A DNA stretch of 64,000 nt, from assembly GCA_022565355.1 (NCBI GenBank), contig JAIUMU010000007.1:1-64000 (forward strand), in the 5' to 3' direction. Below the pieces are notes generated by a model. The model saw nothing but the letters and a program-made list of their open reading frames with translations, made no database searches and was not told where the DNA came from. This document shows positions 2,903 through 45,557 of the stretch, piece by piece (the stretch's first letter is position 1; each line of letters begins with the position of its first letter). This DNA comes from Idiomarina sp. (GTDB lineage Bacteria > Pseudomonadota > Gammaproteobacteria > Enterobacterales > Alteromonadaceae). The position numbers were made by a program, and so were the translations under genes.

Positions 2903-3322
2903 TTACCAGCTTCCCACGTTCTCCATGGACACCCATGGTTCGCTAGGCTCTAGCGCATCACCTTGCTGTAGTAACTCGATGGAAATCCCATCGGGAGAGC
3001 GCACAAACGCCATATGCCCATCACGAGGAGGCCGGTTAATTGTAATACCCATTGCTTGTAAGTGCGTACATACTTGATAAATATCATGCACTCGAAATGC
3101 TAAATGGCCAAAATTACGCCCGCCGGTGTAATTTTCTGGATCCCAGTTATAGGTAAGTTCCAGCTCTGCATCTGGGCTTTCTGGAGCGGCCAGGAAGATT
3201 AACGTAAAACGTCCTTTCGGCACCTCTTTACGGCGCACCTCTTGTAAGCCCAGCCCATCGCAATAAAAGCGTAATGAGGCATCTAAATCGCTAATTCGCA
3301 CCATCGTATGTAAGTATTTCAT
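2903..3322 (-). CDS. gloA: lactoylglutathione lyase (glyoxalase I, VOC family)
   Basis: Glyoxalase I converts the hemithioacetal of methylglyoxal and glutathione to S-lactoylglutathione in the cytosol. The 139 residues form two beta-alpha-beta-beta-beta units. The likely metal ligands can be placed by alignment to E. coli GloA: His5 (KYLHTM), Glu55 (ELELTYNW), His73 (FGHLAF) and Glu116 (DGISIELL). The ELTYNW and FGHLAF motifs are typical of GloA rather than of the wider VOC family. A GGAG ribosome site precedes the ATG. It stands between the dipeptidase and dusA, same strand, with gaps of about 70-150 bases, so a shared transcript is possible but not shown. Confidence 0.85.
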
Positions 3323-3389
3323 TTTCTCTCTCCTGATACGGCGTATGCGAGCCGCATTGTTACCGCTTAATATGCTTTACAGCGCAATT

Positions 3390-4376
3390 TTATAGCTGAG
3401 CTTCACGCTCTGCGGCGCGCGCATACTCTGCATCAATTATCGCTTTTGCTGTTAATAGTGGTGTAGCATCATCCGCTCTCGGGCCAAGCTCACTCAATGT
3501 TCTCCGCCACTGACGAGCTCCCGGGCAATTCTGATATAAACCAAGCATATGGCGGGCCACATGCCAAAAACGCCCACCCGCTCGAATATGCTCTTCAATA
3601 TAAGCATGCATTTGTGCCAACACTTCTTCCTTACTCGGGGCTCTATTCTGTAAACCGAGCAGCTCATCTACTTCGGCTAATAACCACGGGTTCGAATAGG
3701 CGGCTCTGCCGATCATCACTCCATCTACATATTGTAAATGATGTTGCGCTTCTTCTAGGCTATTAACGCCCCCATTTACATGAATCTCTAGTGTTGGGTA
3801 ATCACGTTTTGCCCGATATACGCGCTCGTAATCAAGTGGCGGTATCTCTCGATTCTCTTTTGGACTTAAGCCCTGCAACCACGCCTTTCTTGCATGCAAA
3901 ATAACACGTGGGCACCCTGCTTCGGCAAGAGGCGTAAGTAATGCTTGTAAAAATTCGTAGCTATCTTGCTCATCAATGCCAAGCCGGGTTTTTACTGTTA
4001 CCGGAACATCTGGCGCAGCATCCTGCATGGCTTTAACGCATTCAGTAACTAACATCGGTTCGGCCATTAAACAGGCTCCAAAACTACCGTTTTGCACACG
4101 ATCAGATGGGCAGCCAACATTCAAATTGATTTCATCGTAACCTCGTTCGGCGGCGAGCTTTGCGCATTTAGCCAGCGCCTCAGGGTCACTACCACCGAGC
4201 TGCAACGCAACGGGGTGCTCTGCTTCATTAAAGGCCAGGAAATCCTGTTTACCGAATAAAATGGCACCCGTAGTTATCATTTCGGTGTATAACAACGCAT
4301 GTTGGGATATTTGCCGATGGAAAAAGCGACAGTGACGGTCGGTCCAATCCAGCATAGGGGCTACAGAAATCATCAA
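3390..4376 (-). CDS. dusA: tRNA-dihydrouridine synthase A
   Basis: DusA is an FMN enzyme that reduces uridine to dihydrouridine in the D-loop of tRNA (positions 20 and 20a in E. coli). The protein starts [20 protein letters not shown], the typical DusA opening with its FMN-binding [19 protein letters not shown] carries the catalytic cysteine at about residue 89. KTRLGID and HVNGGVN, further on, contact FMN and substrate. At 328 residues it has full length. It is divergent from zur across 140 bases. The double Met start leaves one codon of uncertainty. Confidence 0.96.
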
Positions 4377-41383: not shown

Positions 41384-43057
41384 TTAGGGCACTGTTACTG
41401 GAATTTCAGTGATATTTACATTCCCGGAAATCCACTCTCCTGATGTATAACTGCCTACCCATATATCGTATACACCGCTACTCGCATTGGAAAACAGTAA
41501 ACCAGGGTTCAATGTGCTACTGTTTGCATCATCGTTACAATGCCAACGGCCATCTGGCGTATTAATAAGCAGTACTGCATCACCTGTATTACTCGCTTGG
41601 AAATATACCTGCAAATCAGCCCCTGAGCCGCTCCAATGCAAACGAATATCCGGCCTGCGCGCTACAAAACCAACGCAATTCGTTAAATTAGTGGTAGCTA
41701 GGTTCACGGAACCACCTGCCGATACTGATACCCGATGCGGATCAGGTGTAAATAACGCAGCCAAGTGAACTTCCCCAGAATACGGTTCGCCAGTAAGCTC
41801 TAACTCTGCAACCGATATTGCCTCACCGCTTGCGGCACCAGCGGGGAATAGTTGTTGGTTCGAGATCGTTAGTTCACCGGCAATATAATCGCCTTCTGCA
41901 TAGCTTCCCACCCAAATATTTACTTCACCAAGCCTAACGTTAGTTAACTGTACCCCTGGATTCAAACCTTGGTAATCATCATTGCAGTGCCACTTACCAT
42001 CGGCAGTTCTAACCACTAATGTACTGTCTTCAGCAGCCTCATCGGCGCTAAAGCTAATATACAAATTAGCCGTGTTTGCATTCAGCTGTAAGCGATAATC
42101 AGGAGCACTAGCTGCATAGCCTACGCAATCGTCATCAAGATAGCGCGCATTGATTAAACCGCCAGCAGTTACTCGTTGTCTAATGCCTGCATACAAGTTC
42201 TCATTCGTGGCAATCGAACTACCAAAGTATGGTTCTTTATTAAAATCTAAGCTCTCATCTGCACTGCGTGTTTGTTCAGACCAATCCGTTAGTAACGCCT
42301 CTTCATCGGTAACAACGGCCATGGCAAACTCTGCTGAAAACAAACTCCCCAAGCGACTACCGGTTACCTGCTCATTCGCTACAAACGTTGGAATGCCGAT
42401 GAGTTCGCCGCGGCTATTAACTGCCGCACCACCACTGTTTCCTGGTGACATTTCAGCGTTGGTTCGATACCACTGCGGCAAGCGGGTGCTGTTATATTCT
42501 CCGTATTGAACCGAAGAAATAATACCGGTGGTGTACACCATTTCATTATCTACTACGCCAGGGTATCCAAAAATGCCAACATGCTCACCGCGCCGTGCTG
42601 CGCCATGTTTACTACTTTGGGAACTCGCAAATTTTAATGCTTGAAATGGCAGGCCATATCGACCAGCAGTAAAATCTGCCACCGAAACCATTGAGTTTTG
42701 ATGATCATGAGTAATTTCCAATAAGGCAATATCATGTTCATCAGAAAAACCCACCAGCCGCGCTTTAAACCTTACTTCAGCCGGTTCATTCACATCGAGT
42801 AACACTGCAATGTCTGCTTCGTAATACCCTTCTACCACATGCTTATTGGTTAATATCAATACGCGCGAATCACGCACAAACAAGGTTCCTGAACCCGTGC
42901 CCTCATCTACACGAACCTGAACTACTGCTCGGGATATTTGATCGATATCGTAGTCTTGCAAGGCATAAAGAGGCGCAATAAGAAGAGCGTTTATGGCAAC
43001 AAAAGCAATGAGGTACTTGTAAATCCAATTGCAACCTAGTTCACGGGGCGGCTTCAT
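41384..43057 (-). CDS. secreted trypsin-like serine protease with two C-terminal repeats
   Basis: The protein begins with a basic-hydrophobic signal region (about 1-33: YLIAFVAINALLIAPLYA). The protease domain (40-255) has the triad His73 (TNKHVV), Asp109 (DEHDIALLE) and Ser208 (SPGNSGGAA), all intact, so it should be active. Two related modules follow, about 275-400 and 424-552. Each opens EPYxG, contains CVGY/F, PDxRL, DGxWHCNDD and IWVGSY, and has a conserved cysteine pair (311/358; 461/507). Export by type II secretion is possible given the GspAB gene nearby, but that is inference. It faces rlmD. Confidence 0.85.
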   Translation of the reverse strand: MKPPRELGCNWIYKYLIAFVAINALLIAPLYALQDYDIDQISRAVVQVRVDEGTGSGTLFVRDSRVLILTNKHVVEGYYEADIAVLLDVNEPAEVRFKARLVGFSDEHDIALLEITHDHQNSMVSVADFTAGRYGLPFQALKFASSQSSKHGAARRGEHVGIFGYPGVVDNEMVYTTGIISSVQYGEYNSTRLPQWYRTNAEMSPGNSGGAAVNSRGELIGIPTFVANEQVTGSRLGSLFSAEFAMAVVTDEEALLTDWSEQTRSADESLDFNKEPYFGSSIATNENLYAGIRQRVTAGGLINARYLDDDCVGYAASAPDYRLQLNANTANLYISFSADEAAEDSTLVVRTADGKWHCNDDYQGLNPGVQLTNVRLGEVNIWVGSYAEGDYIAGELTISNQQLFPAGAASGEAISVAELELTGEPYSGEVHLAALFTPDPHRVSVSAGGSVNLATTNLTNCVGFVARRPDIRLHWSGSGADLQVYFQASNTGDAVLLINTPDGRWHCNDDANSSTLNPGLLFSNASSGVYDIWVGSYTSGEWISGNVNITEIPVTVP

Positions 43058-43265: not shown

Positions 43266-45557
43266 GTGCAGTTACTCCATCAACAGCAGTTACGCTTTTA
43301 CAAAATGGTTGCCAATATCTCGGCAAGCTTTGTTGCGGCTAAAGAAAATGAAATAGACCAGAATATTAGCTCTGCGTTGGCACAAATAGGTGCGTTTTTC
43401 CAAGCCGATCGTAGCTATGTTTTTTCCTTCAGCGAAAAAAATAAAGTAGGCGACAACACCCATGAGTGGTGCGCAGCAGGCGTTGAACCACAACTGGAAT
43501 ATCTGCAGAACATCCCTCTCGATGCTTTCAGCGAATGGGTAGATGATTGGCAGCGCGGCGAAATATCTTGCATTAGCGATGTTTCTAAAATGCCTACTGA
43601 ATCACCAATGCGCCAGTTGCTCGAGCCGCAAGGAATACAGAGCGTGATTATGCTGCCATTGCGTAATGAGCGTGGTGTTGTAGGTATGTTCGGGCTAGAT
43701 TTAGTAAAGGTTAAGATAGAGTGGAATGAGGAACACACCAGTTTACTCAGTATTGTTGCCGAAACCATCGCCAATGCCATAGCAAGAAAAGACGCAGCGC
43801 TTTCATTTCAACTACAACAATCCGTTGGCAATCTCGTTGTTTCCTTTATTAACGTGCCGTCAGCATCAATTAACAGCACCATTAACGAGGCATTTTTGCA
43901 TCTTCAGCGTGATTATGGATTTCAGTATGTTGAACTATTGAGCCCTAAAGCAAGCGCCCATAACCTAACGATCGATAGTGTTAATAGCCCTCACTATCAG
44001 CCTGCCGAACTAGTTTTTCCAGAAGTTGAAGCCAAGTATGCTCACTATTGCAGTTTAAAATTCCCCGTACAGCACGGCTCGGTGCTATATGGATTCATTG
44101 CTCTTGCACATAGCAATCAACGTATTTTTGAAAGTAAAAAGCATCGCTCCGCACTGCAGTTAATTGCGAATGCTATTGCTGGCTCATTGGCCCGCAGAGA
44201 TACCGAGCAAGAAAATAAATATCTCTCATTCCATGATGCATTAACTGGGCTAAGTAACCGCAGGTTCATCGAAAATCATATTCACCAATTGGTGAATAAC
44301 ACTGAACATCATGAAGAATCATCCCAAGAGCATCAATACATACGAGTTGCCGCTCTCATTCTCGATATCGAACGATTTAAGCATATCAACGATACCTTCA
44401 GCCGTGAGAAAGGTGATCAAGTATTACAGAGCGTTGCGGAACGGCTACAAGAACTCGCGTCGGCTAGCCCTAATATTTCCTACAATAACCTGGTAGGGCG
44501 AGTAGGCCCCGATCAGTTTGCGATTTTTATGAATGATATATCCTTTCCAACAAACATCGCCCAACACGAAATTGAGATTTTCATATCACACATAAAAATC
44601 GCTTTTGAAACACCATTTATCATCGATAACAAACCCATCATTATTTCACTATCTATCGGCGTTAGTATGGGATTATCGTGCGATACACACACCACAGAGC
44701 TGCTTAACCAAGCAGAGCTGGCAATGCTAAAAGCAAAAAGTATCGGTACTGGCACAGTTCGTTATTTCAATGAAGAAATGCAAGACATGGCAAGTAATCG
44801 CGGGCAGCTTTATGATGATTTAAAACAAGCTGTACTAAGCAATCAGTTTGTTGTGTTTTATCAACTGCAGGTAAACAACCACGGTATTGCTGAAGGGGCA
44901 GAAGCGCTAGTACGTTGGCAGCATCCTGAAAAGGGAACTATTGCCCCAAACGATTTCATTCCTTTCGCTGAAGAAACATATCTAATTCATCGAATTAGTG
45001 AGCATGTGTTATTGCAAGCATGCCAACAACTGTACCAATGGAGCTTATCTCCCGAAACAGCACATCTTGATCTATCGGTAAATATCAGTGCCAGCCATAT
45101 GTTAAGCGATGGTTTCGTTACTACAGTGAAGCGAATCTTACACAGTACCAAGGTACCTACGCACCTATTGAAATTCGAAATAACCGAAAGTGCAATGATT
45201 GCCGATGCAGATACCATTATTAAGCTCATGCATGAATTAACTGCGCTCGGAATCCGCTTTTCTTTAGATGATTTTGGTACTGGCTATTCATCACTTTCGC
45301 ACTTGAATTTACTGCCAATTAAAGAGCTCAAACTCGATATTAGTTTCGTTCGAGATATCTTACATAGTACTCGCGCTAAAGCCATTGCCTCGGCAGTTAT
45401 TGCCTTAGCGAACGATCTTCAGCTCTCGGTTGTTGCCGAAGGTATTGAAACAGAAGAGCAAAGGGATTTACTCATTGGCTTAGGCTGTAACCGATTACAA
45501 GGCTACTTATACTCCAAACCAACTCCTGCCGCCCAGTTAACCTTACGGCGCCCCTGA
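43266..45557 (+). CDS. GAF-GGDEF(degenerate)-EAL protein, likely c-di-GMP phosphodiesterase
   Basis: The 763 residues hold a GAF domain at about 20-175, a second GAF-like region at 190-310, a GGDEF-like domain at 315-500 and an EAL domain at 515-760. The active-site GGDEF is replaced by GPDQF at 414-418, so cyclase activity is unlikely. The EAL domain keeps the catalytic set: Glu546 (EALVRW), Asn607, Glu639, Asp668-Asp669 (DDFGTGYSS), Lys689, Glu725 and Gln745. It should cut c-di-GMP, perhaps tuned by the GAF domains. The start is GTG. Its last 15 bases overlap the 3' end of the facing GGDEF gene. Confidence 0.88.
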   Translation: MQLLHQQQLRFYKMVANISASFVAAKENEIDQNISSALAQIGAFFQADRSYVFSFSEKNKVGDNTHEWCAAGVEPQLEYLQNIPLDAFSEWVDDWQRGEISCISDVSKMPTESPMRQLLEPQGIQSVIMLPLRNERGVVGMFGLDLVKVKIEWNEEHTSLLSIVAETIANAIARKDAALSFQLQQSVGNLVVSFINVPSASINSTINEAFLHLQRDYGFQYVELLSPKASAHNLTIDSVNSPHYQPAELVFPEVEAKYAHYCSLKFPVQHGSVLYGFIALAHSNQRIFESKKHRSALQLIANAIAGSLARRDTEQENKYLSFHDALTGLSNRRFIENHIHQLVNNTEHHEESSQEHQYIRVAALILDIERFKHINDTFSREKGDQVLQSVAERLQELASASPNISYNNLVGRVGPDQFAIFMNDISFPTNIAQHEIEIFISHIKIAFETPFIIDNKPIIISLSIGVSMGLSCDTHTTELLNQAELAMLKAKSIGTGTVRYFNEEMQDMASNRGQLYDDLKQAVLSNQFVVFYQLQVNNHGIAEGAEALVRWQHPEKGTIAPNDFIPFAEETYLIHRISEHVLLQACQQLYQWSLSPETAHLDLSVNISASHMLSDGFVTTVKRILHSTKVPTHLLKFEITESAMIADADTIIKLMHELTALGIRFSLDDFGTGYSSLSHLNLLPIKELKLDISFVRDILHSTRAKAIASAVIALANDLQLSVVAEGIETEEQRDLLIGLGCNRLQGYLYSKPTPAAQLTLRRP

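Follow-up and report, generated by a model that had tools for sequence, protein, structure and literature searches.

Background

PPC domains are found in exported proteins and are often removed after secretion. Proteins with the layouts trypsin-PPC-PPC and trypsin-PPC-SCP were listed for Hahella chejuensis in 2008 (YP_437990.1, YP_434226.1; PMC2605481). In the subtilisin-fold proteases Tk-SP, KP-43 and SubHal, the C-terminal accessory domain is a jelly roll; that of Tk-SP binds two calcium ions, aiding maximal stability, and Tk-SP folds without a requirement for calcium (PMC3599501). The halolysin SptA has a disulfide-bonded tail, modelled as a jelly roll, which makes it more stable and assists the binding of protein substrates (PMC3158780), and the collagenase tail that includes a PPC domain binds triple-helical collagen (PMC6168687). 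The N-terminal domain NTD1 of the ion channel DeCLIC is also a jelly roll, interrupted by helices between its strands D and E. The channel's calcium site 1, which overlaps one of the calcium sites of Tk-SP, is made of Asp76 (strand D), Asp123 and Asp124 together with the carbonyls of Pro77, Asp123 and Tyr129 (PMC12664993); another DeCLIC calcium site is given in PMC9897478.

The gene considered here lies in a window of 64,000 nucleotides from Idiomarina sp. (contig JAIUMU010000007.1, positions 1 to 64,000). In its product, as in the Hahella Tryp-PPC-PPC protein, a trypsin domain comes first and two domains of the PPC type come after it. The jelly rolls of the three subtilisin-fold proteases named above are among the best structural matches to the second of these, whereas the enzyme here has the trypsin fold.

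The gene and its protease domain

The gene is read on the minus strand as an uninterrupted frame of 557 codons, and the plus-strand reading of the same interval contains 26 stops. The initial annotation had placed the interval correctly, and its strand is corrected here to minus. The features of the gene are as follows.

41384..43057, minus strand: whole gene, 557 aa (open reading frame and translation)
42959..43057, minus strand: hydrophobic N-terminus, probably a Sec signal peptide, residues 1-33 (read by eye)
42392..42892, minus strand: trypsin-like peptidase domain (Trypsin_2), residues 56-222 (PF13365)
42839..42841, minus strand: catalytic His73 (residue check)
42731..42733, minus strand: catalytic Asp109, in DEHDIALL (residue check)
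42434..42436, minus strand: catalytic Ser208, in GNSGG (residue check)
41843..42238, minus strand: module 1, residues 274-405, predicted PPC-type jelly roll; PDP motif and the family's C-terminal Glu lost (profile match, model)
42125..42127, minus strand: Cys311 of module 1, predicted partner of Cys358 (alignment)
42026..42028, minus strand: Asp344 of module 1, predicted calcium ligand (inference)
41984..41986, minus strand: Cys358 of module 1 (alignment)
41975..41980, minus strand: Asp360-Asp361 of module 1, predicted calcium ligands (inference)
41792..41842, minus strand: inter-module linker, residues 406-422; confidence below 50 over residues 405-414 (tandem model)
41390..41791, minus strand: module 2, residues 423-556, predicted PPC-type jelly roll (profile match, model)
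41675..41677, minus strand: Cys461 of module 2, predicted partner of Cys507 (alignment)
41579..41581, minus strand: Asp493 of module 2, predicted calcium ligand (inference)
41537..41539, minus strand: Cys507 of module 2 (alignment)
41528..41533, minus strand: Asp509-Asp510 of module 2, predicted calcium ligands (inference)

The protease domain and its triad are directly established. In a Pfam scan the domain matches PF13365 (Trypsin_2) with an E-value of 4.4e-22 and 79.8 bits against a cut-off of 27.6, and the His, Asp and Ser of the triad, as first read from the sequence, are all at their positions. The nearest NCBIfam model is TIGR02037 (HtrA/DegP, Do family; E 1.1e-20), of which the domain reaches 74 bits against a cut-off of 416.2 and so stays outside the Do family. 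The trypsin fold with His-Asp-Ser is shared with HtrA/DegP, but a PDZ domain is not among the Pfam families matched by the whole protein at E <= 1. Besides the four cysteines of the modules there is a fifth, Cys9, ahead of the N-terminal hydrophobic stretch, and no membrane anchor was noticed in the 557 residues. From the N-terminal stretch, the protease is probably exported.

Two modules with one predicted fold

Behind the protease domain the protein continues with one module and then the other. The two are related far beyond chance, with 41% identity over 110 residues (E 3e-28 in a single comparison). Each has the motifs that were first noticed by eye (EPYFG and EPYSG, CVGY and CVGF, PDYRL and PDIRL, DGKWHCNDD and DGRWHCNDD, and IWVGSY twice), and the cysteines 311, 358, 461 and 507 are found as initially reported, one pair per module. 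A profile of the module run against its own genome recovers the two with E-values of 1.2e-59 and 8.9e-51, which are not independent evidence, since both modules are rows of that profile; the genome has no modules beyond these two.

The model of module 2, built with 100 aligned sequences, has nine strands, a pLDDT of 92.7 and a pTM of 0.88. The three best Foldseek matches of this model are SubHal (2.8e-4), PliG (4.5e-4) and KP-43 (6.3e-4), all with low TM-scores of 0.41-0.45 over the model and rmsd values of 5.9-9.1. In the structural comparison the best solved matches are the C-terminal jelly rolls of proteases: Tk-SP with Z 9.4 (2.8 A over 95), the collagen-binding domain 3b of ColG (1nqj) with Z 9.1 (3.0 A over 94), KP-43 with Z 8.6, SubHal with Z 8.5 and the PPC domain of Bacillus anthracis collagenase (5sv5) with Z 8.1 (3.0 A over 98). 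The C-terminal domain of Clostridium perfringens enterotoxin follows with Z up to 8.2, PliG with 7.8 and DeCLIC with 7.3 to 6.3. Values within 1 of each other are to be taken as tied, and models that have no clear match typically top out at Z 7-8. We therefore put the weight jointly on the protease jelly rolls, on the passing of the PF04151 cut-off by some members and on the profile test given below. A sequence search of solved structures with the module profiles returns nothing significant, the best E-values being 0.095 for DeCLIC and 0.4 for KP-43, and the searches of this kind included chance-like rows such as NSD2.

With its matches to 5sv5 and 1nqj, the predicted module has the PPC/collagen-binding jelly-roll fold, and a novel fold is ruled out by the module 2 model and these matches. 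A model of both modules in tandem (residues 268-557) has a mean pLDDT of 89.2 and a pTM of 0.54, with low confidence over linker residues 405-414, so that the modules appear in it as two beads whose mutual arrangement carries no confidence. Module 1 has in it the same nine strands in the same order as module 2, and matches Tk-SP with Z 9.7. The structure prediction proposed in the initial annotation thus gives one shared fold, a jelly roll, for both modules; two different folds, which it had named as evidence against its reading, are ruled out by the identity between the modules, their common strands and the match to Tk-SP. Because the scores of the enterotoxin domain and PliG come close to those of the protease jelly rolls, the role of the modules cannot be read from the fold alone.

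Relation to the PPC family

The gathering cut-off of PF04151 (PPC) is 25.9 bits. In the whole-protein Pfam scan the sole PPC stretch is residues 442-534 of module 2, at E 0.3, and module 1 is uncovered; module 2 alone reaches 17.3 bits (E 0.009). Searching 38 related genomes with PF04151, we find module 1 of the orthologue in genome G008 above the cut-off with 28.4 bits; in the six remaining orthologues, our own included, no module is matched at E <= 0.001. Single stretches in two further loci, L092 (28.2 bits) and L217 (32.1 bits), also pass, while L081 and L232 reach 47.5 and 33.3 bits only as sums across several modules. PPC is matched by 5 of 16 family members at E <= 10 in a first scan and by 63 of 100 diverse members at E <= 1, with a best value of 1.8e-6. 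NCBIfam has no model for the module, and gives two weak matches among the 16 members scanned.

When the module profile is aligned by hhalign with 22 ordinary PPC domains, the probability is 45.6 (E 2.1e-4, score 28.4), while 40 column-shuffled PPC alignments used as controls reach a probability of at most 2.4 and a score of at most 18.0. The HMM cross-searches are thin: the module profile reports 1 of the 22 PPC domains, and the PPC profile 6 of 217 modules at E <= 0.1. Given the PF04151 scores and the hhalign result against its controls, and yet these thin cross-searches, the link to PPC is likely but distant.

The module shares with PPC the predicted jelly roll, the C-terminal placement in a peptidase and, by eye, a D-x-x-L strand motif. 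It differs in length (about 130 residues against the 70 positions of the PF04151 model), in its CNDD and IWVG motifs and in its cysteines, which stand far apart at module positions 39 and 85, whereas the PPC rows have, by eye, a C-RPY...C pair. Since module 1 of the G008 orthologue and some other members pass PF04151, and both modules are modelled as PPC-type jelly rolls, the module is most aptly regarded as a remote branch of this named group. The description of the module as unnamed therefore holds for the protein itself, in which no library names it at its cut-off, and fails for the family, whose members include some that pass PF04151 and whose predicted fold is of the PPC type. The outcome that would have spoken against that description, both modules matching PPC clearly, is not obtained in this protein, where module 2 reaches 17.3 of the 25.9 bits and the PPC match leaves module 1 uncovered.

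Cysteine and aspartate signature

We count the signature residues over 234 distinct modules with a domain E-value of at most 1e-8, related sequences being counted more than once. Both cysteines are present in 225 modules, neither in 4 and the second only in 5. Aspartate occupies the positions of residues 493, 509 and 510 in 231, 229 and 227 modules respectively, and all three in 226. A second acidic pair, Asp439 (of the PDP motif) and Glu551, is complete in 206 modules and wholly missing from 15; of the remaining 13 modules, 9 keep just the Glu and 4 just the Asp (a gap is scored as absence). The PDP Asp is thus present in 210 and the C-terminal Glu in 215. In every one of the seven orthologous proteases, module 1 has neither of these two residues, with gaps in two of the proteases, and the second module of L010 also has no PDP Asp.

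HMMER aligns the NDD of the module with positions 122-124 (DDD) of a DeCLIC chain, in the weak match already mentioned (E 0.095), which places the module NDD on the Asp loop of the NTD1 jelly roll. The numbering appears to agree with that of calcium site 1, because the next residues of the chain give Gly126, Gly128 and Tyr129, as in PMC12664993. This alignment covers two of the three module acids, and the third is placed by strand order: Asp493 is module position 71, just ahead of strand 72-77 in the module 2 model, and strand 83-86 leads into the NDD. The two strands should pair antiparallel, so that the three aspartates could meet. Each module probably has a disulfide and a putative calcium site. 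Among calcium, a sugar and a substrate, the ligands that had been guessed initially, calcium is the best-supported, by way of this weak alignment to known ligands.

Distribution and partner domains

Within the genus, the full protease is present in 7 of 17 genomes (our own included) and at least one module in 10; single-module proteins that look exported occur in four genus genomes, and a fusion to DUF945 in one. At E <= 0.001 the module is found in 25 of 398 genomes of the phylum, our own included, and in 16 of 289 genomes of the class of genome G361, that genome included, with up to 12 matches per genome. A scan of species genomes gives at least 546 confirmed module stretches. The 79 loci kept include some from Aliidiomarina, Halomonas, Billgrantia, Roseomonas, Maricaulis and Phormidium, and from metagenome bins labelled Gemmatimonadetes, Rhodothermaceae and Anaerolineae (taxonomy as labelled). 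The proteins range from single modules of about 160 aa to arrays of up to five modules (L081, L110), where the starts were assigned mechanically and the N-termini may be too long. In Maricaulis and its relatives (L061, L067, L110) several module genes follow one another and encode arrays that reach four or five modules, which suggests local gene expansion.

Partner domains were scanned in 30 proteins chosen for long non-module stretches, a selection from all such proteins. In 14 of these a named partner is above its cut-off; the other 16 have none, PPC alone or sub-cut-off matches. A trypsin domain stands before or after the module in L127, L128, L129 (incomplete), L130, L145 and L213, and all of these except L213 come from one family of genomes. 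The other partners are DUF945 (L011, L107), CAP (L075), TPR (L097) and Sel1/OmpA (L233); the CAP fusion resembles the SCP/CAP link of the Hahella Tryp-PPC-SCP protein. Weak module matches underlie two further kinds of fusion, to RTX repeats in L141 and L217 and to a caspase-like domain, next to an ordinary PPC, in L227. The genome search that had been suggested with the first description of the repeat thus finds one fold joined to trypsin, DUF945, CAP, TPR and Sel1/OmpA, and the view of the repeat as a small beta module of an accessory nature proves right, on the duplication, the shared predicted fold and the varied partners.

None of the viral contigs matches the peptide patterns of the protein and none of the phage records matches module 2; with matches to PHROGs limited to the protease domain, a phage origin was rejected. 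The protein is matched by 356 plasmid records, none over 80% of its length and, among those listed, mostly through the protease domain. One record matches a single module.

Genomic neighbourhoods

The neighbours of the gene in the window are putA, rlmD and GGDEF-type genes (named by eye). The protease gene keeps its place among these neighbours in genomes G003 and G006, where it is followed by the next GGDEF-type gene; the adjoining 763-aa GGDEF-EAL-like gene of the window (43266-45557, by eye) finds no counterpart at E <= 1e-15 in the syntenic stretch of either genome. None of the window neighbours was found in the stretches around the four other orthologues. The surroundings of the gene give no functional hint, and the neighbour genes looked at suggest no ligand or substrate.

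Elsewhere, the single-module gene of L040 (4899-5393) lies in a co-directional run between argininosuccinate lyase and cytochrome bd genes, an order that L038 and L201 share as judged by gene length; the guess of a MoxR-type operon proved wrong. On plasmid pTM1 of Tistrella mobilis (L238), a 163-aa 'peptidase S1' (2911-3402) has one module (match 3001-3393) and is encoded within a type VI secretion cluster, where hcp and tssA flank its gene. In a comparison of shared neighbours over up to 85 loci, the 18 clusters listed are mostly of single lineages or small groups. The exception is a cluster of 20 loci whose representative is a 902-aa frame (L110, 5374-8082, minus strand); because this representative is antisense to the module array, the cluster, judged from it, looks false.

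Role of the modules

The explanation that we favour, and regard as fairly probable, is that of an exported trypsin-fold protease with two accessory PPC-type modules that stabilise and place the enzyme. Two independent C-terminal jelly rolls would replace the PDZ domains of the DegP-type proteases, each with one disulfide staple and one calcium ion held by the Asp triad. They would stabilise the protease outside the cytoplasm, and may hold it on a protein substrate or a surface while the trypsin domain cuts. We infer this double role by analogy, because SptA, Tk-SP and the collagenase tail provide the precedents for it.

Other roles have to be weighed against this one. The modules may only stabilise, calcium and disulfide making protease-resistant beads that guard the tail and bind no substrate. 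The title of Foophow 2010 ascribes hyperstability to the Tk-SP jelly roll, and the residues conserved most strongly are Cys, Asp and Gly, which are structural; but single exported-looking proteins that have no enzyme, and arrays of up to five, are left unexplained, and we hold stabilisation alone to be unlikely. Arrays of two to five modules, together with fusions to OmpA-type domains and to RTX repeats (the latter from weak module matches), would also suit a surface-adhesion or glycan-binding domain that anchors the protease to the cell surface or a biofilm and not to a substrate, and jelly rolls of similar shape include receptor-binding domains. Since the conserved Trp505 and Trp533 may be core residues and the protein has no membrane anchor that was noticed, such anchoring seems quite improbable.

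A role as inhibitor, possibly of its own or of another enzyme, is brought up by the lysozyme inhibitor PliG, which is the second Foldseek match (E 4.5e-4, Z 7.8) and close in size to the single-module proteins of about 160 aa. Yet the identity is 14%, the C-terminal jelly rolls of proteases score higher, and the module is fused here to a protease with an intact triad, and we give this role hardly any credence. It is also very unlikely that the module is a separate family of similar fold and no common descent with PPC. The modules of this protein do fall below the PF04151 cut-off, and the hhalign probability against the 22 PPC domains is 45.6 and not higher; against this, the G008 module and the stretches in L092 and L217 pass PF04151, and the shuffled alignments stay at or below 2.4.

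Implications

The trypsin-PPC-PPC layout is already in print. The CNDD/IWVG branch, with its disulfide-plus-Asp signature, its single proteins and its arrays, was not found described in limited literature searches. On a further reading, possible though doubtful, this module would be a family of its own, sister to PPC: a mobile, disulfide-stapled calcium bead that many bacteria export, as a single protein or in arrays of as many as five, a genome having up to a dozen copies, and that forms a calcium-dependent extracellular toolkit from which proteases and other enzymes have borrowed. In the lineage of the window, module 1 would then have diverged functionally from module 2 through the loss of the second acidic pair, PDP Asp and C-terminal Glu.

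A domain that is common yet has gone unlabelled gains in this way a description and a testable putative calcium site. At least one single-module protein, the Tistrella 'peptidase S1', is named in databases after a protease domain for which it has no space, about 131 of its 163 residues being taken up by the module. It probably inherited this name from fusions like the protease described here, so the module is likely the source of a wrong annotation. A curated model of the module would correct this misannotation and show which enzymes use the module.
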